Assembly: GCA_020851035.1 (NCBI GenBank)
Contig: JADZDM010000012.1
Coordinates: 1 to 64,000, forward strand
From: Gemmatimonadaceae bacterium
GTDB lineage: Bacteria > Gemmatimonadota > Gemmatimonadetes > Gemmatimonadales > Gemmatimonadaceae
Length of the DNA: 64,000 nt
Direction: 5' to 3'
Shown: piece by piece, positions 6,977 through 25,761 of the stretch
Position numbering within the stretch: position 1 is the first letter of the stretch
Layout of the letters: each line of letters begins with the position of its first letter
Notes under the pieces: generated by a model
Told to the model about the DNA's origin: nothing
Database searches by the model: none
The model's input: the letters and a program-made list of their open reading frames with translations, nothing else
Translations under genes and position numbers: made by a program

Positions 6977-7831
6977 TCAGGCCGCGGCGGCGGCCTGCAC
7001 CAGCGTCAGGTCGGCCGGCCGGCAGAACACCCCGGATGGATGATCCGGGACGCGCAGCACCGAGTCGGTCACGCCGAGCGTGCTCTCGGTGCCGCCAAGG
7101 AAGAGGCAGCCCCCGCGCACCATCGTCCGCGCGATGCGATCGATCACGTCCTTCTTCGTGGCGACGTCGAAGTAGATCAGCACGTTGCGGCAGAAGACGA
7201 TGTCGAACTGCCAGAATGCCGGGAAGGGGTCGAGGAGGTTGATCTCCTGGAACCTGACGCGATCCCGGATCTCCGGCTTCAGTGCGAACCCCTCGGGCAC
7301 CTGCGTGAAGTGCTTCACGAGCAGCGTCACTGGCAGTCCCCGCTGCACCTCGAACTGGTTGTAGACGCCGGCTTTCGCCCTTGCGAGGGCCGCCGCAGAG
7401 TAGTCGGTGGCCGTGATCTCCACCGGCACGCCACCGAGCAGGCGCTCGGCCTGTGCCACGATCATCGCGATGGAGTACGGCTCCTGGCCGGTGGAGCTCG
7501 CGGCGCACCAGATGCGCAGCGGGCGCTTCTCGGCGCGCGCGCGGGCGGCCGCCTGTGGCAGGATCTCCCGCTCGAGGGCCGCGAACGGCTTGCCGTCGCG
7601 GAAGAACAGCGTCTCGTTGGTGGTCATCGCATCACACACGTGCTTCACGAGGGCCGCAGGGGGCGCCTGCCGCAGCGCAGCCACCAGCGCGTTCACGTCG
7701 GCATGGCCGTACGTGGCGGCCACCGGGGGCAGCCGGCTCTCGAGCAGGTACTCCTTGCCGGCGCCGAGCGAGAGGCCGCTGTGCCGGTGGAGCAGCCCGG
7801 CCAGGAACGAGTATTCGTCGCTGGAGATCAT
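6977..7831 (-). CDS. cheR: Chemotaxis protein methyltransferase CheR
   Basis: The S-adenosylmethionine-dependent enzyme that methylates glutamates on chemoreceptors for adaptation. It has 284 residues with an N-terminal helical domain and a Rossmann methyltransferase domain. Visible signatures are NETLFFRDGKPF, the CAASSTGQEPYSIAM SAM-binding loop and FCRNVLIYFD. The frame is open far upstream but the ATG at 7831 overlaps the cheB stop as ATGA, which fixes the start. It is the last gene of the che operon. No TPR or other fused domain is present. Confidence 0.95.
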   Translation of the reverse strand: MISSDEYSFLAGLLHRHSGLSLGAGKEYLLESRLPPVAATYGHADVNALVAALRQAPPAALVKHVCDAMTTNETLFFRDGKPFAALEREILPQAAARARAEKRPLRIWCAASSTGQEPYSIAMIVAQAERLLGGVPVEITATDYSAAALARAKAGVYNQFEVQRGLPVTLLVKHFTQVPEGFALKPEIRDRVRFQEINLLDPFPAFWQFDIVFCRNVLIYFDVATKKDVIDRIARTMVRGGCLFLGGTESTLGVTDSVLRVPDHPSGVFCRPADLTLVQAAAAA

Positions 7832-8922
7832 GCGGCAACCGCCAGCCCGCACTCCGAGACGATGGCGGCCGCGATGCGGTCCAGGGGGAGGATGGCGTGT
7901 GCGATGCCTGCCGCGGCCACGGCACCGGGCATGCCCCACACGACGCTCGTCGCCTCGTCCTGCGCCAGGACCCGGCCGCCGCGTGCGTGCACCTCGCGCG
8001 CGCCGCGCATTCCATCCTCGCCCATGCCCGTCAGCACCACGGCCAGCGTCGAGGCGCCGTAGATGCCGGCGATGGACCGGAACATCGGATCGGCCGATGG
8101 GCGGCAGAAGTTCTCCGGCGGTGCCTGCGTGAGGCGTGCGACGGGGCGTCCCTCGTCCGTCTGCACCGTCAGGTGATACTCCCCTGGTGCGACGTACGTG
8201 CACCCCGGCTGCAGCAGGTCGCCGTCGCTCGGCTCCACGCAACGGCGGTGGGCGTCGCGCTCGAGGCGCTGGGCAAGCAGGGTGGTGAAGAGGGCAGGCA
8301 TGTGCTGGGTGATGAGGATCGGCAGCGCGAAGCTCAGGGGCAGGGCGCCGAGCACGGTGGCGAGTGCGTTCGGGCCGCCGGTGCTGGCGGCGATCGCGAG
8401 GATGCGTGGCCGCGCCTCGCCGTGGCGGGTGGCGAGCAGCTCCGTGCGCCGCGGCACGGCGGAACCCGGCGGCAGCGTCTCGTGCGGCGCGCCGGTGCGT
8501 GGCGCGCGGCCCACGGCGCGGATCTTCGCGGCGATCTCGGCGCTGATCGCGGCGAGCGTCGCGGCGCCGCTGCGCGCGGCAGGCTTCGCGATGAAGTCCG
8601 ATGCACCCAACGCGAGGGCGTGCATGGTGACCTCGGCCCCCTTCTGCGTGAGTGAGCTGGCCATGATCACGCGCACCCCGGGATGCCCCGCGAGGATGAG
8701 CGGCAGTGCCGCGAGCCCATCCATCTCCGGCATCTCGACGTCCAGCAGCACCACGTCGATCACGGTGTGCCGCAGCGCGTCGAGGGCGACCCGGCCGTTG
8801 GGTGCGGTGGTGACGACCGTCATGTCCGGCTCCGCATCCACGATGCGACCGAGTGCGCCGCGGATCACGGCGCTGTCGTCGACGATCAGGACGCGGATCG
8901 GCGTGGGGCCGGTGCCGGTCAC
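7828..8922 (-). CDS. cheB: Chemotaxis response regulator and protein-glutamate methylesterase CheB
   Basis: It removes methyl groups from receptors and opposes CheR; phosphorylation by CheA activates it. The 364-residue chain starts with a receiver domain (LIVDDSAVIR, phospho-acceptor Asp in LLDVEMPEMDG, KP near residue 108). A linker follows, then the methylesterase domain with its Ser-His-Asp triad visible in AASTGGPNA, ITQHMP and LTGMGEDG. The start is a GTG at 8922 that overlaps the cheY stop as GTGA; the open frame further upstream is not receiver-like. The 3' end overlaps cheR by four bases. These overlaps imply translational coupling of cheY, cheB and cheR. Confidence 0.95.
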   Translation of the reverse strand: MTGTGPTPIRVLIVDDSAVIRGALGRIVDAEPDMTVVTTAPNGRVALDALRHTVIDVVLLDVEMPEMDGLAALPLILAGHPGVRVIMASSLTQKGAEVTMHALALGASDFIAKPAARSGAATLAAISAEIAAKIRAVGRAPRTGAPHETLPPGSAVPRRTELLATRHGEARPRILAIAASTGGPNALATVLGALPLSFALPILITQHMPALFTTLLAQRLERDAHRRCVEPSDGDLLQPGCTYVAPGEYHLTVQTDEGRPVARLTQAPPENFCRPSADPMFRSIAGIYGASTLAVVLTGMGEDGMRGAREVHARGGRVLAQDEATSVVWGMPGAVAAAGIAHAILPLDRIAAAIVSECGLAVAA

Positions 8923-9287
8923 TGGACCCCGCAGGCGCCGAGCTTCGAGCCGATGATCGTGGCGTCGAAGGGTTTCATGATGTACTCCGAGGCGCCGAGC
9001 GTGAGCGCGGTCTCGACCTTGTCGAACGAGGTGTGTGTCGTGCACATGATGATCGGCGGTGGCACCACGGCGTTCTGGCCGGCGACGGCGGTGAGGAACG
9101 AGAGCCCGTCCATCACCGGCATGTCGATGTCGCAGAGCACCGCATCGAACGGGTCCCCCGCGACCAGCACGTGCAGCGCCTGCGCCCCGTCCTCGGCCTC
9201 GGTCACCGTGTACTCGAGCTGCTCGAGGATGCGCCGGATGGCCTTGCGGATGGTGCCCGAGTCGTCGACCACCAGGATGCGCTTCAT
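8919..9287 (-). CDS. cheY: CheY-type single-domain response regulator
   Basis: A 122-residue stand-alone receiver domain. Acidic pocket residues are in ILVVDDSG, the phospho-acceptor Asp in LCDIDMPVMDG, the conserved Thr in IMCTTHTS and the Lys in YIMKPFD. It is expected to carry the CheA phosphate to the motility output. The ATG at 9287 is preferred over a GTG three bases upstream, because GGAGG ends five bases before the ATG but only two before the GTG. The start overlaps the stop of the soluble receptor gene by one base (TGATG). Confidence 0.92.
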   Translation of the reverse strand: MKRILVVDDSGTIRKAIRRILEQLEYTVTEAEDGAQALHVLVAGDPFDAVLCDIDMPVMDGLSFLTAVAGQNAVVPPPIIMCTTHTSFDKVETALTLGASEYIMKPFDATIIGSKLGACGVQ

Positions 9288-10969
9288 CACGTCCTCCGCA
9301 TCTTCGTGAGGAAGTCGGTGACGGCCCGGTTCAGGCGCTCCGACTCGATGGAGAGGTTGCCGGCCGCGCTGCGGATGTTCTCGGCCGTGCGCCCGCCCTC
9401 GGCGGCCACCAGCGTCACGGTCGAGATACTCGAGCTCACCTCGGCGGTGCCGCGGGCCGCCTCGCCGACGTTGCGCGAGATCTCGCTGGTGGCGGCGTTC
9501 TGCTCCTCGACGGCACCGGCGATGGTGGTGGAGATCTCGTTGATCCTGTTGATCACCCCCGCGATGTCGCGGATGGCACTCACCGCCGATGCCGTCTCGG
9601 CCTGCACGCCGGCGATCTTGGTGCCGATCTCCTCGGTGGCGCGCGCCGTCTGGCGCGCGAGCTCCTTGACCTCGTTGGCCACCACGGCGAAGCCCTTACC
9701 CGCCTCGCCGGCACGCGCGGCCTCGATGGTGGCATTCAGCGCCAGCAGGTTGGTCTGCTGCGCGATCGACGTGATGACCTTCACCACCTGCCCGATCTCC
9801 TGGCTGGAGACGCCGAGCTTGGCCATCGTCTCGGTCGTCTCGGCGGCCTGGCGCACGGCGACCTGCGAGATCTGCGAGGCGTCCTGCACCCGGCCGGCGA
9901 TCTCCCGGATGCTGGCCGTGAGCTGTTCGGCGGAGCTGGCCACCGTCTGGACATTGCGCGTGGCCTGTTCCGATGCCGCCGCGACCGCCTGGGCCTGGCG
10001 CGTGGTCTCCTCGGACGACGCCGCCATGCCCTGGGCACTGGCCTCGAGTTCCGTGCTCGACGAGCTCACCACGCTCGCGATCGCCGCCACGGTGGACTCG
10101 AAGTCATCGGCCAGTCGGACCTGGTCCGAGACCACCGACCAGTTCACCATCGGGCCGACGTACGATCCCCCGGCGTCGTAGATCGCGACCGCCGTCAGGT
10201 CCAGCGTCTCGGGGCCGACGCGGATCCGCACGTTGTGCGGGAGGTTGCGGTCGGTGGCCAGCATCGCGCGCTGGTGTGCGGCATCCTTGTGGAAGATGTC
10301 GATCGACGATCCCACCACCCTGCTGGCCTTCACCGGGAGGTGTGCCTCGATCCGCGTCAGGGTCTCCAGCGAGGCCGGGTTGATGTACGTGATGTTGAAG
10401 TCGAGGTCGCAGAACATCAGGTTCACCTTCGCCGACTCCACCATCGGCTTGTAGAGCGCCATCTCGCGGCGGAGTCTCACCAGCGGCGTGACGTCGGTGG
10501 AGAACTCCACCACCCTGGTCACCCGCCCGGCGTGGTCGCGCACGGGATTGCAGGTGGCCTGGATCCAGACCTCACGCCCATCCTTGCCGATCCGCTTGCA
10601 CTCGGCGGCATCGGACTCCCCGCGGTTGAGCTTCGCCCAGAAGGCGCGGTACGCCTCCGAGGCGACGTGCTGCGGGTCCACGAACAGTGCGTGATGGCGC
10701 CCCTGGATCTCTGCCAGCGTGTAGCCGAGCAGGGCGAGGAAGTGCTGGTTCGCCGTCAGCACGGTGCCGTCGAGGTCGAACTCGATCACCGCCATCGATG
10801 TGCTGATCGCGGCGACCTTCGACTCCGCCTCGGCGAGTGCCGCGCTCAGGCGCAGTACCTCGCCGGCATCGCCGTCGGCGGGCAGCGTGATCGGGCGAGC
10901 CACGGCGCGGCTGCCCCGGGTCGGCTTGGTGGGGCGGGGGCTCGAAGACGGACGGCGATTCGTTGGCAT
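9287..10969 (-). CDS. Soluble chemoreceptor with two PAS domains
   Basis: A 560-residue receptor with no membrane helix, hence cytoplasmic. After a basic, proline-rich leader of about 30 residues, the first PAS domain (about 50-165) has the usual SMAVIEFDLDGTVLTAN and HHALFVDP pattern. A second PAS-like domain (about 175-280) follows, with MFCDLDFNITYIN. The rest is a methyl-accepting signalling coiled coil with the hairpin tip [18 protein letters not shown]. This is the Aer/BdlA layout; PAS domains of this kind may hold haem or flavin and sense redox, oxygen or light, but I see no residue that proves a cofactor. It sits between cheW and cheY, so it is the cognate receptor of this operon. Confidence 0.93.
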   Translation of the reverse strand: MPTNRRPSSSPRPTKPTRGSRAVARPITLPADGDAGEVLRLSAALAEAESKVAAISTSMAVIEFDLDGTVLTANQHFLALLGYTLAEIQGRHHALFVDPQHVASEAYRAFWAKLNRGESDAAECKRIGKDGREVWIQATCNPVRDHAGRVTRVVEFSTDVTPLVRLRREMALYKPMVESAKVNLMFCDLDFNITYINPASLETLTRIEAHLPVKASRVVGSSIDIFHKDAAHQRAMLATDRNLPHNVRIRVGPETLDLTAVAIYDAGGSYVGPMVNWSVVSDQVRLADDFESTVAAIASVVSSSSTELEASAQGMAASSEETTRQAQAVAAASEQATRNVQTVASSAEQLTASIREIAGRVQDASQISQVAVRQAAETTETMAKLGVSSQEIGQVVKVITSIAQQTNLLALNATIEAARAGEAGKGFAVVANEVKELARQTARATEEIGTKIAGVQAETASAVSAIRDIAGVINRINEISTTIAGAVEEQNAATSEISRNVGEAARGTAEVSSSISTVTLVAAEGGRTAENIRSAAGNLSIESERLNRAVTDFLTKMRRT

Positions 10970-11045: not shown

Positions 11046-11516
11046 TCAGGGTGGTGGCGGATCGAGGCGGAGCACGTCGTGCACGTTCAGCACCAGCAGG
11101 AGCCCGGCCTCCTGCCGGATGATGCCGAGGCAGGCACTCCGCCAGCGGGAGTCGAGCGTGGGTGGGGGAGGCGCCACGTCCGCGGCGTCCACCGACAACA
11201 CGTCGCCCACCTCGTCCACCATGAAGGCGAACAGCTCACCGTCGTGGCGGACGACCACGTTCATGATCGCGGCGCCCGGCTCGCGCGGCGGCATGCGCAG
11301 GGTCGTGCGCAGGTCGAGCGCCGTCACGATCTGCCCGCGGAGGTTGAGGAACCCTGCGATGGCGTCCGGGGCGAGCGGCACGCAGGCGATCTGCATTGCC
11401 ACCAGGACCTCCTGCACGACCATGACCGGGATGCCCAACCATTGCCCGGCCAGCCGGAAGGTGACGTACTCCTGGTGCCCGGTGGTGGTGCGGGCGTCGG
11501 CCAGTGCAGCGCTCAT
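11046..11516 (-). CDS. cheW: Chemotaxis coupling protein CheW
   Basis: The adaptor that joins receptors to CheA; 156 residues, a single CheW (SH3-like) domain from YVTFRLAGQWLGIPV to LNVHDVLRL. The conserved FLNLRGQIVTALDLR segment lies at residues 56-70. The ATG at 11516 overlaps the cheA stop as ATGA and sets the start. A proline-rich tail ends the protein. A 76-base gap precedes the soluble receptor gene, still on the same strand. Confidence 0.94.
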   Translation of the reverse strand: MSAALADARTTTGHQEYVTFRLAGQWLGIPVMVVQEVLVAMQIACVPLAPDAIAGFLNLRGQIVTALDLRTTLRMPPREPGAAIMNVVVRHDGELFAFMVDEVGDVLSVDAADVAPPPPTLDSRWRSACLGIIRQEAGLLLVLNVHDVLRLDPPPP

Positions 11517-13750
11517 GGTGTCACCGCCGTCACCCGCGCCGCGGCGTCGGTGACATCGCCATCGCCGTGTGCGAGGCGCAGGAAGTGATCGGTGTCGATC
11601 ACCTCCGTGGCGCGGCCGCTCAGCACGGCCACACCCAGCACACCCGCGCGCGTCGCGCGCCGCTGCAGCACGAGCTGTTCCTCGACGATGTCGCGGATCG
11701 CGTCCACGGCGAGCCCCATCGTCCGGTGGCGGTCGCTGAAGACGATCACCGGGCGCGGGTCCATGCTGCGCATGTCCATCCCCGCGCGGGCGGCGACGAT
11801 GGGCATGAGGCTGCCCCGGTACTGCACGACGTGCTGGCCGTCCGCCTCCTCGAGGCTCGACAGCGGGAACTCCTCCAGTCGTGCGACCAGGGCGAGCGGC
11901 ACCGCCTGCAGGGCCCCCGCGCCGACCTCGAACAGCAGCACGCTCTCGGTGCCATGGGCCGTGGCGGCATCCCGCGCGCGCTGTGCCGCGGCGGCGGCCT
12001 GCCCGTCGCCCGCGCGCGGATCGTGCACCACCCGCGCCATGTCGGCCAGCCCGGCGGTGTCGAGGATCATGATCACGCGCCCGTCTCCCGTGATGGTGCA
12101 CCCGGTGTAGGCGCTGAGGTGCTTGACCAGCCGGCCCACCGGCTTCACCACGATCTCCTGGGTGTCGAAGACCTCGGCCACCACCAGCCCGAAGCGCACC
12201 TCGCCCACCTGGCAGACGACGATGTTGCAGGCGTCCATCTCGTCCTCGTCTCCGAGCGCCAGGATGGTGCGCAGGCTGACCAGCGGGAGCAGCGTGTCGC
12301 GGAGGCGATAGAATCGGGTGCCGTGCACCTGCTCGATGAGGGAGGCCTGCTCCTCGGTCACGCGCACCAGCTCCACGATCCCGATCTGTGGCACCGCGAA
12401 CGTCTCGCCGGCGGTGCCGACGAGCAGCGCGGAGATGATGGCGAGCGTGAGCGGGATCTTGATGCGGACGAGGGTGCCGGCGCCGACGGTGGACGCCAGC
12501 TCGACGGTGCCGCCGATGCCCTCGATGTTGCTGCGGACGACATCCATGCCGACGCCGCGGCCCGACACGTTCGTGACCACTTCCGCGGTGGAGAAGCCGG
12601 GCTCGAAGATCAGCCGCAGCACCTGCGCCTCCGACAGGGAATCGGCGGCCTCGGCGCGCACCAGGCCGCGTTCCACCGCCTTGCGCCGGATCCGGTTCGC
12701 GTCGATGCCCGCGCCGTCGTCACGGATCTCGATCAGCACGTGACCGCCCTCGTGCCGTGCCGAGAGGTGGATCGTGCCGCCCGCCGGCTTGCCCGCGGCG
12801 ACCCGCACGGTCGCCGGTTCGATGCCGTGGTCCGCGGAGTTGCGCACCATGTGCGTGAGGGGATCGGTGATCGCCTGCAGGATCTGCCGGTCGAGCTCCG
12901 TCTCGGCGCCGTGCATCTCGAGGGTGATCGCCCGGCCGCTGGAGTTCGACAGGTCGCGCACCAGCCGCGGCAGCTTCGTCCAGGCATTGCCGATGGGCTG
13001 CATGCGGGTCTTCATCACCGCCTCGAGCAGCTCGGTCGTGACCCGGTCCAGCTGCTGCACCGGCTTGCTGAAGGGTGACTCCTCGTTGGATGCGGCGAGC
13101 TGCAGCAGCTGGTTGCGCCCGAGCGCGAGCTCCCCCACGAGGTTCATCAGCTTGTCGAGCACGTCGATGCCGACTCGCAGTGTGCTGTCGGCAACGGCGT
13201 GGTGCGGGTCACCGGCGCCGTCACCGGAGCCGCGTCGTTCGATCCCGTCCCATCCCCCCCGGCCGGCGGACGTCGGCGCGTCGGCCGGCGCTGAAGGCAC
13301 CACCACTGGCAGGGGCAGCGGGACGAGCGGCGCGATCAGGACGTCCGGCACCGGCGCGGCGGCGGCGCTCCCGGTGGGGGCGATCCAGCGCTCGAGCGTG
13401 GCGATCAGGGCGCTGTCATCACCGGTCGGCTCCACCTCGTCGGCCGCCAGCCGTGCGAGCACCGCCTTGATGCAGTCCACCGCCGCGAGCACGTCGCCGA
13501 TCAGCGCCGGCGTCACCTCCAGCCGGCCCGCGCGCAGCGCATCGAGCACGTTCTCGGCCGCGTGTGCCACGCCTTCGAGCCGCGGCAGCCCGAGAAAGCC
13601 ACAGGTGCCCTTCATGGTGTGGATCGTGCGAAAGACGCCGTGCAGTCGCGCGGTGTCGTGCGGCGTGCGTTCGAGCTCGACGATGTCGTTGTCGAGCTTC
13701 GCCAGGTTCTCGTTGCTCTCCGTGAGGAAGTCCTGCAGAAGGTCGTCCAT
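11513..13750 (-). CDS. cheA: Chemotaxis histidine kinase CheA with duplicated CheW-like domain
   Basis: The autophosphorylating kinase of the array. From the ATG at 13750 it has 745 residues. The HPt domain carries the phospho-His at residue 44 (TIHTMKGTCGFLG). A Pro-rich linker follows, without an obvious P2 CheY-docking domain. Dimerisation (DKLMNLVGELALGRNQ) and ATPase (HMVRNSADHGIE, RDDGAGID, GRGVGMDVV) regions come next, then a first CheW-like domain. A second CheW-like module occupies roughly the last 130 residues (VLLFEVGAG to VIDTDHFL). A longer start at 13858 would add 36 residues unlike HPt domains. It heads the che operon and is divergent from the BLUF gene. Confidence 0.94.
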   Translation of the reverse strand: MDDLLQDFLTESNENLAKLDNDIVELERTPHDTARLHGVFRTIHTMKGTCGFLGLPRLEGVAHAAENVLDALRAGRLEVTPALIGDVLAAVDCIKAVLARLAADEVEPTGDDSALIATLERWIAPTGSAAAAPVPDVLIAPLVPLPLPVVVPSAPADAPTSAGRGGWDGIERRGSGDGAGDPHHAVADSTLRVGIDVLDKLMNLVGELALGRNQLLQLAASNEESPFSKPVQQLDRVTTELLEAVMKTRMQPIGNAWTKLPRLVRDLSNSSGRAITLEMHGAETELDRQILQAITDPLTHMVRNSADHGIEPATVRVAAGKPAGGTIHLSARHEGGHVLIEIRDDGAGIDANRIRRKAVERGLVRAEAADSLSEAQVLRLIFEPGFSTAEVVTNVSGRGVGMDVVRSNIEGIGGTVELASTVGAGTLVRIKIPLTLAIISALLVGTAGETFAVPQIGIVELVRVTEEQASLIEQVHGTRFYRLRDTLLPLVSLRTILALGDEDEMDACNIVVCQVGEVRFGLVVAEVFDTQEIVVKPVGRLVKHLSAYTGCTITGDGRVIMILDTAGLADMARVVHDPRAGDGQAAAAAQRARDAATAHGTESVLLFEVGAGALQAVPLALVARLEEFPLSSLEEADGQHVVQYRGSLMPIVAARAGMDMRSMDPRPVIVFSDRHRTMGLAVDAIRDIVEEQLVLQRRATRAGVLGVAVLSGRATEVIDTDHFLRLAHGDGDVTDAAARVTAVTP

Positions 13751-13889
13751 GTGGGTGACGGAGATGAGATTCGGTGTGCTGACCTGTACGAGGCTCGTCC
13801 CTTGTCCGGGGTTCTTGATTGTTGGGAAAGTCTTGTAAACAGAGGGTTCGGCCTGCATGAGTGGCCCGTAATCCGCGTGCGCAGTTCTG

Positions 13890-13925
13890 GTATCACCTTG
13901 AGCCCTGACGTATCAGCGCCGATAC
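13890..13925. promoter_or_regulatory. GTATC repeats upstream of the BLUF gene, possible operator
   Basis: GTATCA occurs at 13890 and 13910, exactly 20 bases apart, and the second copy forms a near-palindrome with GATAC ending at 13925 (GTATCAGCGCCGATAC). The group ends eight bases before the BLUF start codon, inside the divergent cheA/BLUF intergenic region. This is where a repressor or activator controlling one or both genes could bind. No consensus promoter is obvious. Binding is inference. Confidence 0.35.
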
Positions 13926-13933
13926 TGTGGGCC

Positions 13934-14389
13934 ATGCAACTCATCCGACTGATCTACTCGAGCAAGGCCAGCGCGGGCATCGGATACGAGGACCTCCTCC
14001 GCATCCGGACGACCGCGGTCGCGCACAACCGGGAGCAGCACATCTGCGGGGTGCTCTGCTTCGGTGCCGGTGTGTTCCTGCAGGCGCTCGAGGGCGAGCG
14101 CGGCGAGGTGAACCGGCTCTACAACCGCATCGTGACCGACCCGCGGCACAGTGACCCGCAGGTGATGAGCGCCGAGCCGATCTCGGCGCTGAGCTTCCTC
14201 GACTGGTCCATGAAGCTGGTGAGCTGGGACGAGGCGTACACGCCGCATCGTCGTGAGCTCATGCTGAAGCTGCTCGGGATGACGGCCTTCGACCCGGCGG
14301 AGATGACCGGGCCGCAGGCGTACCACTTCCTGCGTGAGCTGTCCGTGCACGAACGCCGGATCACCTCGTCGAACCCGGTCGTCGCGTAG
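13934..14389 (+). CDS. BLUF-domain blue-light sensing flavoprotein
   Basis: A short BLUF protein of 151 residues: an FAD-binding blue-light photoreceptor domain with a C-terminal helical cap and no fused output domain. Key residues align without gaps to AppA of Rhodobacter: Tyr8, Asn32, Gln50, Trp91 and Met93 match AppA Tyr21, Asn45, Gln63, Trp104 and Met106, each shifted by 13. These residues make the light-switched hydrogen-bond network around the flavin. The start ATG at 13934 is at the first beta strand; an open frame upstream is antisense to cheA. Short BLUF proteins act through partner proteins. It is divergent from cheA and convergent with ndvB (24-base gap). Confidence 0.93.
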   Translation: MQLIRLIYSSKASAGIGYEDLLRIRTTAVAHNREQHICGVLCFGAGVFLQALEGERGEVNRLYNRIVTDPRHSDPQVMSAEPISALSFLDWSMKLVSWDEAYTPHRRELMLKLLGMTAFDPAEMTGPQAYHFLRELSVHERRITSSNPVVA

Positions 14390-14413: not shown

Positions 14414-17400
14414 CTACCCCTCCACCGGGTGCGGCTCGACCACGACGAGATGCGCCGCGCCGTCGTCCACGAGCGGAATCTCGCCCTGCGGGTGCGGGAT
14501 GCTGTCGATCGTCACCCGCGCTCCCTGCGTGCGCACGAGCGATGGCCGGCGGACCTCGATGTGGTAGGTCGTCGTGCCGAAGCGGTAGTCGACGGTGAAC
14601 GTCGGCCATGCCGCCGGTACGCAGGGGACGACGCGCAGCCGGCTGCCCTCGCGCTGCAGCCCCAGGATGGACTCGAGCCCCACGCGGTACATCCAGCTCG
14701 CCGACCCGGTGTACCAGGTCCAGCCTCCGCGCCCGACGTGCAACGGTGACGTGTAGACGTCCGCCACCACCACGTATGGTTCCACCTTGTACCGCGCCAC
14801 ACCGGCAGCGGAGTCCGTGCGCGTGAGCGGATTCAGCATGGCGAACAGCTCGAATGCCCGGTCGCCCTCGCCCTGCATCGCGGTGGCGAGCACGGCCCAC
14901 AGCGCCGCATGCGTGTACTGCCCGCCATTCTCGCGCACGCCCGGCACGTACCCGCGAATGTACCCGGGATCATCCTCCCCCTTGTCGAAGGGCGGCGTGA
15001 GGAGCTGGATGATGCGGTCGTGCTCGCGGATGAGCTGGTCCTGCATCGCCGACATCGCCAGCGCCGCCCGGTCCGGCGGGGCAGCACCGGAGATCACCGC
15101 CCAGCTCTGCGCGATGGCATCGATGCGACACTCGGCGCTCGACGCGGAACCCATCGGGCGGCCGTTGTCATAGTAGGCGCGCCGGTACCACGCACCGTCC
15201 CAGCCGCCCTCCTCGGCGGCCGCCGCGTATGCGTCCGCCTGCGCCCGCATCCACGCTGCCTCGGGACTGTCCCCGCGTGCGTCTGCCAGCGCCGCGAAAC
15301 TGCGCAGCGTGCGGATCAGGAACCAGGCCAGCCACACGCTTTCGCCGCGGCCCTCCGCACCCACCAGGCTCATGCCGTCGTTCCAGTCCCCGGTGCCGAT
15401 CAGCGGCAGGCCGTGCGCCCCCGTGGTGCAGGCGCGACGCAGCGCGCGCCGGCAATGCTCGTAGACGCTCCCATGCTCCTCCGTCGGGTGCGGCAGGTCG
15501 TAGAGCTCGTGCTCGCCCTCCGCGAGTTCCCGCATTGTCAGGAACGGGACATACTCCTCGAGGAGCGAGCTGTCGCCGGTGACCGTGACGTAGTGATGCA
15601 CGACGTACGGCAGCCACGCGAGGTCATCGGAGAACCGCGTCCGCACGCCGCGCCCGCTGTGTGCGTGCCACCAGTGCTGCACGTCGCCCTGCACGAACTG
15701 TCGCGCGGTGGCGCGCAGGATGTGCTCGCGGGCCACCCCCGGCTCGGCGTGGAGGAGCGCCATCGTGTCCTGGAGCTGGTCGCGGAACCCGAACGCGCCG
15801 CTGCTCTGGTAGAGGCCCGTGCGCGCCCACATCCGGCAGCCGAGCGCCTGGTACAGCGCCCACTTGTTCAGCATCGCATCGAACGCCGGGTCCGGCGTGG
15901 TCACCCGCACCGCGGAGAGACGGTGCGCCCAGGCCTCGACGCTGGTGGCGATTGCCGCCGCGGCGGCGGGTGCCGGTCGCAGCGTCCGGAGCAGGTCCCG
16001 CGCGCGACCCTCGTCGGAGGCCGCGCCGAGCAAGACGGTCACCTCGCGGGTCTCGCCGGCGGCGAGCAGCACGGTGCATTGCAGCGCCGCGCACGGATCG
16101 AGTCCCACCCCGTTGGCGCCGTCGAGCGCCTTCCGCGACAGCCCGGCCGGTGCGGCGAGGCGGCCGTTGCGACCCAGGAACCCGAGGCGGTCCGCCGTGA
16201 AGCTCGCGACCGGCTCGCTCACGGACAGGAATGCCGTCCAGCTGGCGAAGAGCGGGTCGAAGTGGTTGAAGGCGAAGATGGCCTGGTGCTCGGCCACGTA
16301 CCGCGTGCGCACCTGGTGCTGCGAGCTGTCGCGCCGCGCACCGAGCGTCCACTCGGCGTAGGCGGTGACCGTGATGCGGCGGGGGTGCGCCGTCGTGTTG
16401 GTCAGGGACAGCGTCGAGACCTTGACGGCCGCATCGGTCGGGGTGCCGAGCCGCAGCGTGGTGCACACGCCATCATGGTCGTGCTCGAACGTCGATGCGC
16501 CCGGTTCGTGCAGCACGCGATACGTGCCGTCGCCGTCCACCGGCGCCGGTGTCGCGCTCCAGAGGTCGCCGGTCTCGTCGTCCTGCAGGTAGATCGCGTC
16601 GCTCACCGGATCGCAGACAGGATCGTTGTGCCAGGGGGTGAGCCGGTAGAAGTAGGCGTTCTCCGCCCACGTGCACCCTGCGCCGCGTTCCGTGACCAGG
16701 AAGCCGCCGTGCGGATTGGCGATCACGTTGGCCCACGGAGCCGGCGGCAGGTGCCCGTTGCCCACGGTGATGCGGTAGTTGTCTTCCTGATCCAGTCCGC
16801 CGTAGCCGTTCGCGAACCGGAGCGTTGGAGCGCGGCGTTCGACGGCCACCGGCACGGTGCGGGTCCGCGCGGACCGTGGCATCAGCGGCTCCACCAGCGG
16901 ACGCAACGCGGAGACGATCGAGGCCAGCGGCCCGGCACGATCCTGCGCCGGCACCAGCGTGGCGGGCGTGGTGCGCTCGATCGAGCGCGTCGTGACCACC
17001 GACGGCAGGAGGGTCGGTACGTCGATCGTGCTCGCGTCCGCGTTGGCGAGCACGCGAGCCAGCGATCGCCCGTCGCAGGTCACCTGGACGCGGGCGCTGG
17101 CGGAGAGCAGCAGGAGGTCCTCGGCGCCGAACAGCTCGCGGCGACGGATGAAGACGCCGCCGGCTCGGTCCATCAGCGAGGCATCGTCGGCGGCGACGGT
17201 CGCCTCCGTGATCGCGTCGCGCAGCTCCTGCAGGTAGTCGTAGGCGTGGGCATTGATCACCACCAGGTCCACCGTCAGTCCGCGCTGGCGCCAGTACCGG
17301 TGCGCCACGAACAGCTCGCGCAGCGTCGGCAGCCCCTCCATCCGGTCGATCGTCGCCAGCACGATCGGGTGGTCGCCGGGAATGCCGTGCGCCCAGAGCA

Positions 17401-20400
17401 GCGGCTGCGAGCCACGGCTCCGGCGCAGCTCGTCGTGCGGCGGCGCCAGCGAGCCACCGAGGTAGAGCAGCTGGGTGGCGATCTCCTGGAACACGGCGGC
17501 GTTGGCCGGCGTGATCCCTTGCTCGCGCAGCTCGATCTGCGTCGACGTCCAGGCGAAGTCGAGGGCGCGCTGCGCAGCATGCGAGTCGTGGTAGCGGCCG
17601 GCGAGCTCGAAGGCGCCGGCGCGCGTGGTCGCCACGAGGGTCGTGAACGCCACGCTCACCGACTGGCCCGGTGCCACGTGCACGCGGGTGCGCAGCGAGA
17701 GGATGGGGTCCAGCACCGGGCCGGTGGTGCCCGGCAGTGGTCCGCGGGCCGCCATCGCGGCGGGCGCGCGAAGGGTGCGGCCGCGGCCGATGAACCGGGC
17801 GCGGTCCGTCTCGCAGCTCACCTCGCCGATCCGCTCGCGACCCGCGTCCACCACGTGCACGCACCAGAGCGGCACCTCCGCGTGGCTGCGTGGGCGCCGG
17901 GCGGCGGTGAGTGCGGTGCACCACCCGTGCCACTCGGTTTCCATGAACAGGTTCGAGAACGCCGGGTGCGCCGCGTCCGACGCCTGCGTGTTCATCACCA
18001 CCTCGGCATAGCTCGTGAGCTCGATGTCGCGTCCTTCGCGCCCGAAGTTCGTGAGGGTGACGCGCCGGACCTCGGCGGAGTCCGCCGGGACCACGGTGAT
18101 CTCGGTGCGGGTCTCGATGTCGCCATCCATCCGGCGCAGCGTGACGCGGTCCGACGCCAGCCAGGCGTGGCTCGAGTCGGCGGGATGCCCGACCGGCTGC
18201 TGGGCGGTGGACCAGGTGGTGCCGGTGGTCAGGTCGTGCACGTAGCAGAACTGGCCCGCGTCGTCACAGGTGCTGTCGGCACGCCAGCGGGTCACGGCGA
18301 TGTCGCGGTAGCGGCTGAATCCGCTGCCGTTGTGGTTCAGCATCACCGTGTAGGGCACGGACCCGAGCAACGCGATGCGGGGGGCCGACACCTGTTGGGT
18401 GTCGACCTCGCGCACCACTGGCCGGTCCGCCTCGACCTGCGGCCGCACGTCATCCGGCGGCGTGGCTTGCGCCGGCTGCATCACCAGGCGTCGCGGCACG
18501 GCCTCGTGCAGCAGCAGCTCCACCGCCTTCACCATCGCGTCGGCGTGGAAGCGCTCCTGCCAGATGTCGGCGTGGAGCACGTTCGTGAAGGCCACCAGTG
18601 ACATCCCGACGTGGTGCGCGAAGTACGACCGCACGAAGGCCAGCTTTTCGCCGGGCGCCGGCCGCGTGTAGTCCAGCGCGTCGCAGAAGCCGTAGTCGCC
18701 GAGCGCGCCCATCGACTCCAGCGCGCGCAGGTTGGCGAGCGCGCGGCCAGGGGTCACCAGCGTTGCGAGCGCCGTGGCGTACGGCGCGATGACGAGGTCA
18801 CGCGCCAGCCCGCGCTTCAGGGCGAGGTCGGGGATGCCGAAGGCGCGGTACTGGTACGTCTGGTGGCGGTCGCGGATGTTCCAGGCACTCTCGCTGATGC
18901 CCCACGGCACCCCGCGCAGGCGGGCGTAGGCGATGTGCCGGGCGATCACCGCGTCGTACGTCTGCGCGAGGAGCGTGTGGGGCAGGGAGCGCATCACCAG
19001 CGCCGGCATCAGGTACTCGAACATGCTGCCGCTCCACGACACCAGCGCCGTCTCGCCGACGGTGCGGCTCAGCGCGCGCCCCAGGCGGAACCAGTGCTCG
19101 ATCGGCACGTCGTTCCGCGCGATGGCGATGAAGCTGGCCAGCCGTGCCTCCGAGGCCAGGAGGTCGGAGTACGACTCGTCCGGCGTGAAGCTCTCGGGGT
19201 GGTACCCGATGGTGAACAGCTTCCGCTCGGCGTCGTAGAGGAACGAAAACTCCATCTCGTTCACGAACGCCCACGCGTCGCCAGCCAGCTGCAGCAGGCG
19301 CGGCTGCAGGGCCGGTTCCGCCAGACCGTAGGCGAGGCAGGCCTGGCGCAGCGCCAGCAGGTGGCCCGCGATGTTGCCGCTGTCCACCGTGCTGACGTAG
19401 TGCGGCTCGAGCACCTGCAGCGTCTCGAGGTCGTACCAGTTGTAGAAGTGCCCGTGGTAGCGGCGCAGCGTGGCCATCGTCGCCATGGTGCGCTCCAGCC
19501 GCGCGGTCATCTCGGCCGGCGCGATGAGCCCCAGGTCACACGCGCTCACGGTCGCCAGCAGTTGCAGCCCGATGTTCGTCGGCGAGGTGCGCATCGCCAC
19601 CACCGTCACCGGCTCGGTCTGGATGTTGTCGGGGGCCAGCCAGTGCGTCTCCGCCGTCACCAGCGCATCGAAGAAGTGCCAGTGCACCGCCGCGTACTGC
19701 GCGACCGTGGCCCGCATCGCGTCGGTCAGCGGCCGCCGTTCCTCCATCGTCGGCCGGCTGAGGCGCGCCATCAGCCAGGGGGCCAGCATCCAGCCCGTCA
19801 CCAGGAGCGCCATCAGGAAGGCCACGAACTGGAGGGACCGCAGCTCCAGTCCCATCGCCCGCTGCCGCGCGACCCCGTTCCACGTCACGAGCAGCATCGT
19901 GACCGCCACGAACGCCAGGCTGCCGCGCATCGCGCGCCAGGTGGCGCCCCCCACGTCGGTCACGCTGCGCTGCACCAGCTGGGCCGACTGCCACTCCAGC
20001 AGGTGCCGTCGCGAGACCAGCAGGCGGTGGAGCGTGCGCACGATGGCATCGGCAGACACGAGCGCCTGGTGCGGCAGCGTGACGACCGCCACGATCGCCT
20101 GGTCCAGGCTCACGGCGGCGTCCTGGAGCACCGCCTCGTAGTAGGCACGCCACGACTTGTCGCGCGGCGGGCGGAGGGCGGCCAGCAGCAGCGCCGTCGC
20201 CCACGGCGCGACGATCGCGCCCAGCCCGAGCAGAGTCCAGCGCAGCATCGAGCCGGGCAGGATCGTCCAGCCGCCGAGCAGGAAGAGCAGCTGCGACAGC
20301 TCCACCGTGCTGCGCCGGAGGTTGTCGACGATCTTCCAGCGCGACACCAGCGACAGCCGGTTGCGCTCCGGTCCCGCCGGCCCCGGCACCGTGCGCCGCA

Positions 20401-22843
20401 GCCACGGCAACAGCTGCCAGTCGCCGCGGATCCAGCGGTGCTTGCGCCGCGTGTAGGCCACGTACGTCGTGGGATAGTCGTCGTACACGATGACGTCCGA
20501 CGCCAGCCCCGCACGGGCGTAGTTCCCCTCGATCAGGTCGTGCGAGAGCAGCATGTTCTCGGGGAACCGGCCGTGCGTGGCCGCCTGGAACAGTGCCACG
20601 TCGTAGATCCCCTTGCCGGTGAACGTGCCCTCGCCGAACAGGTCCTGGTACACGTCCGAGACGGCCGTCGAGTACGGGTCCACGCCGGGATGCCCCGACG
20701 CGATCGCCGCGAAGCGCGAGCGATGGGAACTGGGCAGCGCGACGCCAACGCGTGGCTGCAGGATGCCGTAGCCGCGGCGCACGCCGCGCGCCGGATCGTA
20801 GACGGGGCGGTTGAGCGGGTGCGCCATCGCCCCGATCAGGGCCGGTGCGGCGTCGGGGGGGAGGATCGTGTCGGAGTCGAGCGTGATCACGTACGTCACG
20901 CCGCGCAACGCCTCGGTGTCGCCGGCGCGGACGGTGAACGCCCCTGTCTCCTCGCCGCCCACCAGCCGGTTGAACTCCGCCAGCTTGCCACGCTTGCGCT
21001 CCCAGCCCATCCAGGTGCCCTGGGCCCCGTTCCAGCGGCGCGGGCGGTGCAGCAGGTGGAACGGCCCCGACCCGCCCGCCTCCGGGCCATGCCGCGCGTT
21101 CAGCGCTGCCACGCCGTCCACCGCCGCCGCCACGATGGCCGCGTCACCCTCGCGGTCCTCCGTGGCGGCATCGGTGAAGTCGCTGAGGACCGCGAAGTGC
21201 AGGTGCGTCTCGCGGTTGGCGAGGAACTGCACCTCCAGCATCGCGAGCGCATCGTGCACGTCGTCGACGGTGCCGAACAGCGTGGGAATCACCACCGCCG
21301 TCCGGTACGCCTCCGGCACGCCGGTGCGGTCCAGGTCCAGCCGCGGCAGGATGTGCGGCGGCAGGAAGGCCGTGATCAGCTGGTTGAAGACCGTCACGGC
21401 GATGTCGAGCGCCGGCAGGAACGCGAGCAGCAGCAGCAGGAGCAGGGAGGGCCGCATGCCGGGCTCCGTCAGGAGCAGCACCGTCAGCGTGGCGAGTGTC
21501 GCCAGCAGCGCCAGCCCACCCACGAACACGCGGTTCGCCTGGGTGTGCACCCCGCGCTCGATCCGTTCCAGCAGGGTGGGGGAGTAGCCGGCGATGGCCT
21601 CGAGCTCCGGCAGCCCCTCGTCCACCAGCCAGTATCCCACGTGCGCGCGGATCCCGGCCGGCACCTCGCTCGCGACCGTCGGGGCGCGCAGGCAGAGGTC
21701 GATGGCCCACTGTGCCACCGATGCCTCGCGATGGCGGGTGCCCTTGGCGATCCGCTCCACCGCGTGCCGGTACGAGTCGCGGGTGGCGAAGGTCATGAGT
21801 GCGTAGTGCCCCGAGGGGTCGGTGCGCAGCACGGCCTCCATCACGCTCTGCTTCTCGACGAAGTGCCGCCAGTCGCGGCGCCCGATGTCACGCAGGCTGG
21901 TGATGCTGTTCGCCATCATGATCTGCGTCAGCGTCACGCGATGGGCGGACTGCGCGGCGGCGGTGTCGGGACTCACGCCGCCATCACGCATCCAGTGCTC
22001 CAGCCACGCCAGCGGCGGCGAGGCGCCCTCGGCCTGCCGCAGCAGCTGCAGGAACCGCGACACGAAGTGCGGTGTGAGCTCGTGGCCGGCGTCGGCGAAG
22101 GTGCGCAGTGCATCGCGCAGCGCGGTGCCGCCACGCGCATTCGCCTCAAGGATCCGGTCCGACCAGAGGGCGGCCAGCTCGATCTCGTCCAGCCGCTGCA
22201 TGGTCCGCAGCGTCATGCGGCGGACGCTCTCGATCAGCCCGAGGCGCAGCATCGCCGGCATGGCCCACAGCTCGCCGAGCGAGAGTGGGGTCACGCTCTG
22301 GAACGACTCGACGTAGAGGTCCACGTTGTCGAGGTCGATGCGCGCTTCCGTGTGCGAGATCAGCGAGATCGCCATCTCGTACACGCGCGGGTACCCCGTC
22401 ATCGGACCGCTCGCCAGCTCCGGCAGCTCGCGATAGTAGCCGCCGGGCAGGCTCGATCGCACCTCCTGCAGGTGCTCGAGCACCACGTGGAAGTTGTCCA
22501 GCAGCCATTCCGCCGCGGGACCGGCGTCGGCGTTCATGGCGGCCGCGGCCAGCAGCCGGGTGTGGGCATCGCGCAGGATCTCGCGGGTCTGCGCCAGCCG
22601 CGCCAGGAGGCGCGCCGGTCGCAGTGGCCCGCGCGTCGCCGCCAGGCGCTGGCCACGCGCGAGGGCCCGCGCCCGCGCCGCGAGATGTTCCGCCCCGAGC
22701 AGCTCACCGCCGATCGGCCCGGTGAGCAACTCGTCCACTGCTTCCGCTCTCGAACGTTCGGCTCTGCTGCTCACCTGTGAAGCGTCACTGGCATCTTGTC
22801 GTCGTTCAGGGAAATGCGCAGCGACGGGCGGACCCGTGGCCAC
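14414..22843 (-). CDS. ndvB: Cyclic beta-1,2-glucan synthase (NdvB/ChvB type)
   Basis: One giant membrane enzyme of about 2,809 residues, full length for the NdvB family. The N terminus is helical and cytoplasmic. Membrane segments lie near 438-490, then a family 84 glycosyltransferase domain (about 500-830; DSDT near 653, GEGTFTGKG, and RWIRGDW near 805). More membrane helices lie near 848-1010. A glycoamylase-like domain follows (GDYGFCDALDYTRP near 1385). The C-terminal half is GH94-type, with the TGDWNDGM catalytic motif near 2488. The family initiates, elongates, trims and cyclises beta-1,2-glucan from UDP-glucose; in Rhizobiales the product acts in osmotic adaptation and host contact. 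No transporter of the ndvA type is adjacent. Several possible start codons lie in the first 40 residues. Confidence 0.93.
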   Translation of the reverse strand: MATGPPVAAHFPERRQDASDASQVSSRAERSRAEAVDELLTGPIGGELLGAEHLAARARALARGQRLAATRGPLRPARLLARLAQTREILRDAHTRLLAAAAMNADAGPAAEWLLDNFHVVLEHLQEVRSSLPGGYYRELPELASGPMTGYPRVYEMAISLISHTEARIDLDNVDLYVESFQSVTPLSLGELWAMPAMLRLGLIESVRRMTLRTMQRLDEIELAALWSDRILEANARGGTALRDALRTFADAGHELTPHFVSRFLQLLRQAEGASPPLAWLEHWMRDGGVSPDTAAAQSAHRVTLTQIMMANSITSLRDIGRRDWRHFVEKQSVMEAVLRTDPSGHYALMTFATRDSYRHAVERIAKGTRHREASVAQWAIDLCLRAPTVASEVPAGIRAHVGYWLVDEGLPELEAIAGYSPTLLERIERGVHTQANRVFVGGLALLATLATLTVLLLTEPGMRPSLLLLLLLAFLPALDIAVTVFNQLITAFLPPHILPRLDLDRTGVPEAYRTAVVIPTLFGTVDDVHDALAMLEVQFLANRETHLHFAVLSDFTDAATEDREGDAAIVAAAVDGVAALNARHGPEAGGSGPFHLLHRPRRWNGAQGTWMGWERKRGKLAEFNRLVGGEETGAFTVRAGDTEALRGVTYVITLDSDTILPPDAAPALIGAMAHPLNRPVYDPARGVRRGYGILQPRVGVALPSSHRSRFAAIASGHPGVDPYSTAVSDVYQDLFGEGTFTGKGIYDVALFQAATHGRFPENMLLSHDLIEGNYARAGLASDVIVYDDYPTTYVAYTRRKHRWIRGDWQLLPWLRRTVPGPAGPERNRLSLVSRWKIVDNLRRSTVELSQLLFLLGGWTILPGSMLRWTLLGLGAIVAPWATALLLAALRPPRDKSWRAYYEAVLQDAAVSLDQAIVAVVTLPHQALVSADAIVRTLHRLLVSRRHLLEWQSAQLVQRSVTDVGGATWRAMRGSLAFVAVTMLLVTWNGVARQRAMGLELRSLQFVAFLMALLVTGWMLAPWLMARLSRPTMEERRPLTDAMRATVAQYAAVHWHFFDALVTAETHWLAPDNIQTEPVTVVAMRTSPTNIGLQLLATVSACDLGLIAPAEMTARLERTMATMATLRRYHGHFYNWYDLETLQVLEPHYVSTVDSGNIAGHLLALRQACLAYGLAEPALQPRLLQLAGDAWAFVNEMEFSFLYDAERKLFTIGYHPESFTPDESYSDLLASEARLASFIAIARNDVPIEHWFRLGRALSRTVGETALVSWSGSMFEYLMPALVMRSLPHTLLAQTYDAVIARHIAYARLRGVPWGISESAWNIRDRHQTYQYRAFGIPDLALKRGLARDLVIAPYATALATLVTPGRALANLRALESMGALGDYGFCDALDYTRPAPGEKLAFVRSYFAHHVGMSLVAFTNVLHADIWQERFHADAMVKAVELLLHEAVPRRLVMQPAQATPPDDVRPQVEADRPVVREVDTQQVSAPRIALLGSVPYTVMLNHNGSGFSRYRDIAVTRWRADSTCDDAGQFCYVHDLTTGTTWSTAQQPVGHPADSSHAWLASDRVTLRRMDGDIETRTEITVVPADSAEVRRVTLTNFGREGRDIELTSYAEVVMNTQASDAAHPAFSNLFMETEWHGWCTALTAARRPRSHAEVPLWCVHVVDAGRERIGEVSCETDRARFIGRGRTLRAPAAMAARGPLPGTTGPVLDPILSLRTRVHVAPGQSVSVAFTTLVATTRAGAFELAGRYHDSHAAQRALDFAWTSTQIELREQGITPANAAVFQEIATQLLYLGGSLAPPHDELRRSRGSQPLLWAHGIPGDHPIVLATIDRMEGLPTLRELFVAHRYWRQRGLTVDLVVINAHAYDYLQELRDAITEATVAADDASLMDRAGGVFIRRRELFGAEDLLLLSASARVQVTCDGRSLARVLANADASTIDVPTLLPSVVTTRSIERTTPATLVPAQDRAGPLASIVSALRPLVEPLMPRSARTRTVPVAVERRAPTLRFANGYGGLDQEDNYRITVGNGHLPPAPWANVIANPHGGFLVTERGAGCTWAENAYFYRLTPWHNDPVCDPVSDAIYLQDDETGDLWSATPAPVDGDGTYRVLHEPGASTFEHDHDGVCTTLRLGTPTDAAVKVSTLSLTNTTAHPRRITVTAYAEWTLGARRDSSQHQVRTRYVAEHQAIFAFNHFDPLFASWTAFLSVSEPVASFTADRLGFLGRNGRLAAPAGLSRKALDGANGVGLDPCAALQCTVLLAAGETREVTVLLGAASDEGRARDLLRTLRPAPAAAAAIATSVEAWAHRLSAVRVTTPDPAFDAMLNKWALYQALGCRMWARTGLYQSSGAFGFRDQLQDTMALLHAEPGVAREHILRATARQFVQGDVQHWWHAHSGRGVRTRFSDDLAWLPYVVHHYVTVTGDSSLLEEYVPFLTMRELAEGEHELYDLPHPTEEHGSVYEHCRRALRRACTTGAHGLPLIGTGDWNDGMSLVGAEGRGESVWLAWFLIRTLRSFAALADARGDSPEAAWMRAQADAYAAAAEEGGWDGAWYRRAYYDNGRPMGSASSAECRIDAIAQSWAVISGAAPPDRAALAMSAMQDQLIREHDRIIQLLTPPFDKGEDDPGYIRGYVPGVRENGGQYTHAALWAVLATAMQGEGDRAFELFAMLNPLTRTDSAAGVARYKVEPYVVVADVYTSPLHVGRGGWTWYTGSASWMYRVGLESILGLQREGSRLRVVPCVPAAWPTFTVDYRFGTTTYHIEVRRPSLVRTQGARVTIDSIPHPQGEIPLVDDGAAHLVVVEPHPVEG

Positions 22844-24120: not shown

Positions 24121-24353
24121 CCGCCGCCGTCCGGCGGTGGAGCAGGTCAGGCCCTGCCGGACCACCACGCCCGCCGCCGTCAGCGGTTGCCTGACAGGCC
24201 GCGTTCTTTTGCCTTATGGCATGTCTGGCGATTCGAGTGCAAGCTCGTGGTGCAGCAGTGCATGATGTTCTGTCGGTGTTTCAGCACCGGTGACCTGTCG
24301 GTTCCGGGCGGTGGAGCCATGCACTCACATGAAACTGGATGAGGAGCCGACCC

Positions 24354-25754
24354 GTGCGCGTTGACCCATTCGAGGACGGCCTGGACCCTGTCGGCGGCCG
24401 GTTCGTCGTGCCGCAGGTGGATCCGGCGCTGTTGGACCGGTATGACGTTTCCGTGCCGCGCTACACGAGCTACCCGGCGGTGCCGGACTGGAATGGCGCC
24501 TTCACGCGCGACGCGTGGCGGCAGCACCTGGGGACGCTCAACGGCAGCACCGACTCGCTGGCGCTGTACGTGCACCTGCCATTTTGCGCCTCGCGCTGCC
24601 TGTACTGCGGCTGCAACGCCACCGTGACGCGGCGTGCCGAGGTCGTCGACCGGTACCTCGATCGCCTGCAGGTGGAGATCGACCTCCTCAGCGAGTCGAT
24701 CGGCGTGGCGCCCCGCGTGGCCGAGATGCACTGGGGCGGCGGCACGCCGAACTTCCTCGACGAGCGCCAGACCGAGCGGCTGTTCACGATGCTGCGTGGC
24801 GCCTTTCCGATCGATGCCCGCACCGAGTGCTCGGTGGAGGCGGATCCGCGGCTCGTCAGCCGCGCGCAGCTCGACCAGTATCACGCCCTGGGCTTCAGCC
24901 GGATCAGCTTCGGTGTCCAGGACCTGGACGCCGTGGTGCAGCATGCCATCGGGCGGATCCAGCCCGAGGCGCTGGTCCGGGACGTGGTCGCCATGGCGCG
25001 TGCGGCCGGCTTCGGGGGCATCAACCTCGACCTGATCTACGGCCTGCCGGAACAGACGGCGGCCAGCTTCGCACACACGGTGAAGGAGTGCCTCTCGCTC
25101 GCGCCGGACCGGGTGGCCTGCTTCGGCTATGCCCATGTACCCTGGATGCGTGCGCAGCAGAAGCGCATCGACGAGCGCGCCCTGCCGCGCGGCGTGACCC
25201 GCTTCGCCCTCTTCCGCGACGCCGTCGAGCAGTTCGTCGGTGCCGGCTACGAGTGGCTCGGCATCGATCACTTCGCGCTCCCGAACGATCCGCTGTCGCT
25301 GGCCGCCGAGGCGGGACGGCTGCACCGCAACTTCATGGGCTACACCACCCGCGTCGGCGAGAACCTGCTCGGCATCGGCACCAGCGCCATCTCCGAGGTG
25401 AACGGCTGGTACGTGCAGAACACGCCGGAACTGGGCGGGTGGCAGCGCGACATCGACCTCGGCCAGCTGTCGATCGCCCGCGGCCACGTCCGCTCGGTGG
25501 ACGACAGCAACCGTGCCGACGCCATCACGCACCTCATGTGCAACGCCGAGCTGCCGTTCGACATGTTCGTGGGCGACATGTTCGAGCTGGTCGATCGCTT
25601 CGAGGCGTACGCCACCGATGGCCTGGTGGAGTTCGAGAGTGACCGGGTGCGCGTCACGCCCCTCGGCCGGTTCTTCCTCCGCAACCTCTGCGCGACACTG
25701 GACGCGTACCGGGTCAACACGAGTTCCACGTTCAGGTTCTCCCGCGCCGTCTGA
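24354..25754 (+). CDS. hemN: Oxygen-independent coproporphyrinogen III oxidase HemN
   Basis: A radical-SAM enzyme that oxidatively decarboxylates coproporphyrinogen III to protoporphyrinogen IX without oxygen, in haem and chlorophyll synthesis. The protein has about 466 residues. The iron-sulfur ligands are in the CASRCLYCGC motif (CxxxCxxC plus the extra Cys typical of true HemN rather than HemW). The GGGTPNFL SAM-binding motif and the N-terminal RYTSYP motif are also present. I chose the GTG at 24354 because GAGGAG lies seven bases upstream; an ATG at 24339 has no such site. The bchJ-like gene begins seven bases after its stop. Confidence 0.93.
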   Translation: MRVDPFEDGLDPVGGRFVVPQVDPALLDRYDVSVPRYTSYPAVPDWNGAFTRDAWRQHLGTLNGSTDSLALYVHLPFCASRCLYCGCNATVTRRAEVVDRYLDRLQVEIDLLSESIGVAPRVAEMHWGGGTPNFLDERQTERLFTMLRGAFPIDARTECSVEADPRLVSRAQLDQYHALGFSRISFGVQDLDAVVQHAIGRIQPEALVRDVVAMARAAGFGGINLDLIYGLPEQTAASFAHTVKECLSLAPDRVACFGYAHVPWMRAQQKRIDERALPRGVTRFALFRDAVEQFVGAGYEWLGIDHFALPNDPLSLAAEAGRLHRNFMGYTTRVGENLLGIGTSAISEVNGWYVQNTPELGGWQRDIDLGQLSIARGHVRSVDDSNRADAITHLMCNAELPFDMFVGDMFELVDRFEAYATDGLVEFESDRVRVTPLGRFFLRNLCATLDAYRVNTSSTFRFSRAV

Positions 25755-25761
25755 GCGCGCC

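Follow-up and report, generated by a model that had tools for sequence, protein, structure and literature searches.

A PixD-type BLUF protein, probably in the FliA gene set, as a plausible light input to flagellar motility in Gemmatimonadaceae

PixD is a phototaxis photoreceptor in Synechocystis and acts through PixE (PMC5812497). A further link between BLUF proteins and movement comes from Spongiibacter nanhainus CSC3.9, in which a BLUF gene upstream of a che and motAB cluster is reported, with BLUF-dependent induction of che genes by blue light and altered motility of a BLUF mutant (PMC8805636). Light also enters CheA arrays through PixJ1 and the sensory rhodopsin transducers, in which the photoreceptor lies within or is fixed to the receptor, and AppA is one of several BLUF regulators of photosynthesis genes. 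A BLUF-che link and PixD phototaxis are already known from two other bacterial groups, and the original prediction overlooked these cases in treating phototaxis through a BLUF-Che pair as not established. Among the papers searched, none that joins Gemmatimonadota to BLUF, or phototaxis to G. phototrophica, describes such a system. What is new here is thus a PixD-type BLUF that has left its pilus and PixE setting for a probable flagellar regulon and the side of a cheA operon.

We analyzed a window of 64,000 nucleotides on contig C12 of a 5.0-Mb Gemmatimonadaceae genome (G000), in which the region between cheA and a divergent BLUF gene begins at position 13751. The features discussed below are as follows, with coordinates counted from the start of the window.

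6977-7831, minus strand: cheR (CheR domain, E = 1e-54)
7828-8919, minus strand: cheB (CheB_methylest, E = 3e-60)
8919-9290, minus strand: cheY (PF00072, E = 3e-27)
9287-10969, minus strand: cytoplasmic PAS-PAS chemoreceptor (MCP; MCPsignal E = 8e-33; PAS1 like Aer PAS/LOV, PAS2 like Aer2 haem-PAS)
11046-11516, minus strand: cheW (PF01584, E = 1e-29)
11513-13750, minus strand: cheA (Pfam: Hpt, H-kinase_dim, HATPase_c and two CheW-domain matches)
13751-13933, no strand: divergent cheA/BLUF intergenic region, 183 bp (162-352 bp in relatives)
13792-13818, minus strand: sigma-28 (FliA)-like candidate cheA promoter, -35 TCAAGAAC, N11, -10 GACGAGCC, 41 bp before the cheA start
13898-13925, plus strand: weak sigma-28 (FliA)-like candidate BLUF promoter, -35 TTGAGCCC, N12, -10 GCCGATAC, ending 8 bp before the ATG (score 7.1)
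13934-14389, plus strand: BLUF photoreceptor gene, PixD-type, 151 aa (Pfam PF04940, AF2 model, Foldseek)

The BLUF gene matches PF04940 with 94.7 bits (E = 1.3e-26; E = 7e-27 in a scan against Pfam) and is the only BLUF gene that a PF04940 search finds in this genome. All five switch residues named in the original prediction (Y8, N32, Q50, W91 and M93) are present in its product; these numbers are PixD-style, AppA's own being 13 higher. With about 150 residues, a BLUF core and C-terminal helices, the protein has the make-up of a short BLUF, and Pfam finds no output domain in it, SCHIC being likewise absent. The best Foldseek matches of an AF2 model (pLDDT 89) were full-length PixD structures (E = 4e-17, TM up to 0.90, r.m.s.d. 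1.1 Å), with AppA ranking behind, and phmmer gave E values of 1e-27 against Tll0078 (C-terminal helices included), 2e-23 against Slr1694 and about 6e-13 against the AppA domain. Because model fold and sequence scores both favor PixD over AppA, we class the window BLUF as PixD-type, its nearest solved full-length relative by these measures being PixD. The proposed likeness to AppA therefore holds for the switch residues, which the two share along with a phototrophic host, but not for nearest kinship; an AppA-like identity was rejected, since AppA has a SCHIC output domain that the window BLUF lacks and PixD is closer. We infer that the window BLUF undergoes flavin photochemistry. AppA-like BLUF-SCHIC proteins, as judged by eye, are encoded by separate genes in relatives. 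BLUF proteins of about 330 aa with a C-terminal region resembling AppA SCHIC, again by eye, occur in other genomes of the phylum (L057, L058, L059, L061 and L062).

With PixD (Slr1694/Tll0078) the window BLUF shares its full-length fold, its sequence and a link to motility, whereas the setting differs: type IV pili and a pixE neighbor for PixD, flagella and a cheA neighbor here. We found no PixE-like CheY-PATAN partner in the window genome, where the DUF4388 matches do not lie beside the BLUF gene; the DUF4388 ORFs were rejected as PixE partners because by eye they are TPR-like or AAA-like and not of CheY architecture. Two DUF4388 (PATAN-type) proteins stand in a row with a tandem DnaA/AAA-like protein (by eye) on contig C7 of the same genome (L173, 2665-8779). 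Spongiibacter nanhainus resembles the window in having its BLUF gene beside a che cluster. Its host is a gammaproteobacterium, however, and its BLUF gene precedes the cluster instead of diverging from it; the cluster figure omits parts of 4 kb and 33 kb, and the sections consulted of that report (PMC8805636) give no sigma-28 promoter evidence. The window BLUF, proposed to bring light into a CheA array as PixJ1 and the sensory rhodopsin transducers do, differs from them in being a separate soluble protein.

Pfam and the coordinates confirmed the predicted six-gene operon that starts with cheA and diverges from BLUF: the order is cheA-cheW-mcp-cheY-cheB-cheR (13750-6977, minus strand), and all six components have intact domains. 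We placed the cheA start at 13750 because most relatives share an (M/L)DD-type start there; a longer start at 13858 was rejected as relatives do not share it, and the intergenic gap is therefore 183 bp. The receptor is cytoplasmic with two PAS domains, as had been read from the DNA. It contains no hydrophobic stretch (the 19-residue Kyte-Doolittle mean peaks at 1.1); PAS1 is a strong match related to Aer and LOV PAS domains, and PAS2, which falls below the Pfam threshold, is yet clearly related to the Aer2 haem-PAS, with the ID-FHK--AHQR region of Aer2 present in an alignment to 3vol, 4hi4 and 6ceq. Given these resemblances, the array encoded by the BLUF-linked operon probably senses oxygen or redox state. 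Two further CheA genes are present in the window genome, one of them on contig C5 at 399 kb, 24 kb from fliG. Since this CheA lies near flagellar genes, the BLUF-linked array may be auxiliary and may not be what chiefly controls the motor. A membrane chemoreceptor with weak dCache, HAMP and MCP domains is encoded 3' of the che operon (31-2598, minus strand).

We then compared gene neighborhoods, mostly in draft assemblies. BLUF genes are carried by 27 of 346 genomes across the phylum and by 29 of 179 Gemmatimonadaceae genomes. A BLUF gene stands head to head with an orthologous cheA in 8 of the 179 family genomes, from three genera: the window's genus, g1 (G000, G281), Gemmatimonas, g4 (G039, G338, G365, G368), and g21 (G184, G243). 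The expectation that BLUF would lie near che genes in relatives was thus borne out within these genera, but not phylum-wide, an extent that we rejected as the other sampled families held no case of the pairing. The seven other linked cheA orthologs are 63-70% identical to that of the window, and the cheA-W-mcp-Y-B-R order is complete in every linked genome with a long enough contig. Because the divergent pair recurs in these seven genomes, its adjacency exceeds chance, and a linked BLUF is present in 8 of about 14 genomes carrying the orthologous che type. Which gene follows beyond BLUF depends on the genus (a GH94-type glucan enzyme in the window's genus, an M20 peptidase in Gemmatimonas and a mechanosensitive channel in g21), and it is therefore the BLUF-cheA junction that has been kept. 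The glucan enzyme of the window (14414-22843, minus strand) is 2809 aa long, resembles a cyclic glucan synthase and combines glycosyltransferase, glucoamylase and GH94 domains; its gene is tail-to-tail with BLUF and is kept as a neighbor only in the window's genus.

In a CheA tree, the linked CheAs fell into one clade (SH-aLRT 99) together with two non-linked members, G249, which has the peptidase gene of Gemmatimonas and cheA but, cleanly, no BLUF between them, and G375, which is a fragment. The phylogeny fits one gain of the BLUF linkage followed by one or two losses, and the eight linked cases are one evolutionary event. Linked copies are basal in the BLUF tree, where 19 unlinked Gemmatimonas copies form a derived clade. 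BLUF is under purifying selection in Gemmatimonas, with dN/dS of 0.10-0.13 between pairs; selection looks weaker in the window's genus, where a divergent pair gave 0.57. The linked BLUF of G281 (L050, 9840-10301) has Glu at switch position Gln50, so the window's genus may have diminished or altered photoactivity. None of the nearest BLUFs in other phyla lies beside cheA: across 76 genome loci, mostly from Burkholderiales, only the Gemmatimonadaceae ones were linked. A response regulator about 5 kb from BLUF in Rubrivivax-type loci was rejected as a che link, being a Fis-type regulator by a HAMP/PAS histidine kinase.

An E. coli-like sigma-28 motif before the BLUF gene was the first sign of a link to FliA. 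To avoid circularity, we trained a sigma-28 matrix solely on the flagellin promoters of ten family genomes, which carry a TCAAGTYC-N11-GCCGAKAC-like site 79-81 bp before the flagellin ATG, and scored it on 160-bp upstream regions, with 350 control upstreams giving 1% and 5% quantiles of 11.5 and 8.9. Six linked BLUF upstreams each scored within the top 1.5% of these controls (G039 18.4, G184 18.2, G338 15.0, G365 15.0, G368 12.1 and G243 11.4), with G338, G365 and G368 being close kin and not three independent cases. The site is degenerate in the window genome (7.1, empirical p = 0.105) and in G281 (2.1). In all eight, weak ones included, the top-scoring site stops 8 or 9 bp short of the BLUF start codon, and leaderless transcripts are therefore predicted. 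Ten unlinked BLUFs scored from -0.5 to 3.5 with the same flagellin-trained matrix.

Upstream of cheA, scores ranged from 11.0 to 21.4 in all eight linked genomes. The window cheA site, at 12.4, exceeds the 1% control quantile and is only the sixth best in the 64-kb window, so the promoter case is weak for G000 alone; its strength comes from the relatives. Genome-wide searches with a strict pattern yielded four matches in G039, including flagellin and BLUF, and three in G184, including BLUF and a flagellin-like gene, with 0-3 matches per genome for a reversed-pattern control. FliA was found in the nine genomes examined, the eight linked ones and G249, and that of the window genome scores 224 bits against TIGR02479, above the cut-off. 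As predicted sites, the sigma-28 promoters support a link between BLUF and motility that is independent of gene position.

All eight linked genomes encode FliG and pufL/pufM-type reaction-centre genes, and flagellin and FliA are present in linked genomes. Across the family, 24 of 29 genomes with BLUF have pufLM against 20 of 150 without (Fisher p = 3e-13), an association confounded by shared ancestry, and since the eight linked cases are one event, correlations with phototrophy are not independent. Six genomes have the orthologous cheA and no linked BLUF, four of which (G395, G396, G155 and G090) are without pufLM. In G. phototrophica, which bears one polar flagellum, a CheA gene (GEMMAAP_RS15835) goes up with calcium (PMC9862903). 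The window also contains, some 10 kb away from BLUF, a row of tetrapyrrole-type genes (24339-26807, plus strand): a radical SAM HemN-like gene, a V4R-domain protein gene and a UPF0093 (HemJ-like) gene.

On balance we favor a reading in which the PixD-type BLUF, as part of the FliA gene set, is a soluble light input to flagellar motility, with the array of the divergent operon as its likeliest target. A BLUF without an output domain must act through a partner, and since the che proteins alone are conserved as candidates for that role, we favor the array as the place where light enters. BLUF would be made with the flagellum under FliA (sigma-28) and would sense blue light, which would act on its oligomeric state or its surface as it does in PixD. 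It would then bind or release an array component, either CheA-CheW or the cytoplasmic PAS/haem-PAS receptor; CheA in the changed array would phosphorylate CheY to a different extent, and motor switching would shift accordingly. Phototrophic cells could in this way weigh light against oxygen or redox signals. We infer contact of BLUF with the array and phototaxis, and blue light probably steers the swimming of the linked, flagellated, photosynthetic bacteria. A more specific form, which we put forward only tentatively, has the soluble BLUF as a flagellar class-III protein that docks on the haem-PAS array, so that blue light acts directly on CheA activity and aerobic anoxygenic phototrophs integrate light and oxygen in a single array.

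We rank array input first, the motor or another regulator second and transcriptional control of che third. In the second reading, BLUF is a member of the flagellar regulon whose target is the motor, the CheY pool, c-di-GMP or a PatA-like regulator, and not CheA, CheW or the receptor. Its closest relative PixD does work via PixE and not a CheA array (PMC5812497). G074 (L056 6324-19307; C1:2536400-2556300) holds a second, independent BLUF-che cluster with a different BLUF subtype, all on one strand, in the order cheA-W-mcp-Y-B-R-cheX, GAF/PAS/HD protein, BLUF, PAS/GAF histidine kinase, response regulator and GGDEF response regulator. The cluster counts in favor of array input, while its HD and GGDEF proteins suit the second reading. 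Beside the linked BLUFs, however, che genes are the only conserved neighbors and no EAL, PATAN-CheY or regulator gene has been kept, and we regard action beside the array as unlikely though credible.

The original prediction had also allowed for a signal through expression control, in which BLUF would alter expression of the che operon in light by an anti-repressor logic, as for AppA or E. coli BluF. The BLUF-dependent rise of che proteins in blue light reported for Spongiibacter (PMC8805636) gives this some footing. It is disfavored because both genes look FliA-driven, so that flagellar assembly sets their expression, and because the short BLUF has no DNA-binding domain; with no conserved regulator gene nearby either, we consider it improbable. 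Least probable is that BLUF and cheA are passive neighbors, BLUF having once inserted upstream of cheA, stayed there by descent and acting elsewhere, for example on photosynthesis genes: one origin with some losses and the BLUF-pufLM correlation (24/29 against 20/150), which an AppA-like role would predict, suit this reading, but the pairing survived a turnover of the genes past BLUF in each of the three genera, and a flagellin-type promoter stands before linked BLUFs only.

If light input into the array is the correct reading, phototrophic Gemmatimonadota, whose photosynthesis was acquired by horizontal transfer, would have a route from a flavin photoreceptor to flagellar chemosensing. Gemmatimonas phototrophica, which is in culture and flagellated, would then allow tests of how a stand-alone BLUF signals to a CheA array. 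As a light module separate from the receptor, such a protein could also serve to control swimming by light.

Other BLUF genes of the phylum lie in different surroundings. At L032 (3990-7550, G163), a BLUF gene comes directly after genes for a hybrid histidine kinase, which has a receiver domain, and for a periplasmic binding protein. The unlinked Gemmatimonas BLUF paralogs mostly occupy a conserved place by methylmalonyl-CoA mutase/carboxylase-like genes, as judged by eye (L038, L046, L051, L036, L034, L045 and L052), a position that makes a light link to a B12-dependent pathway possible.
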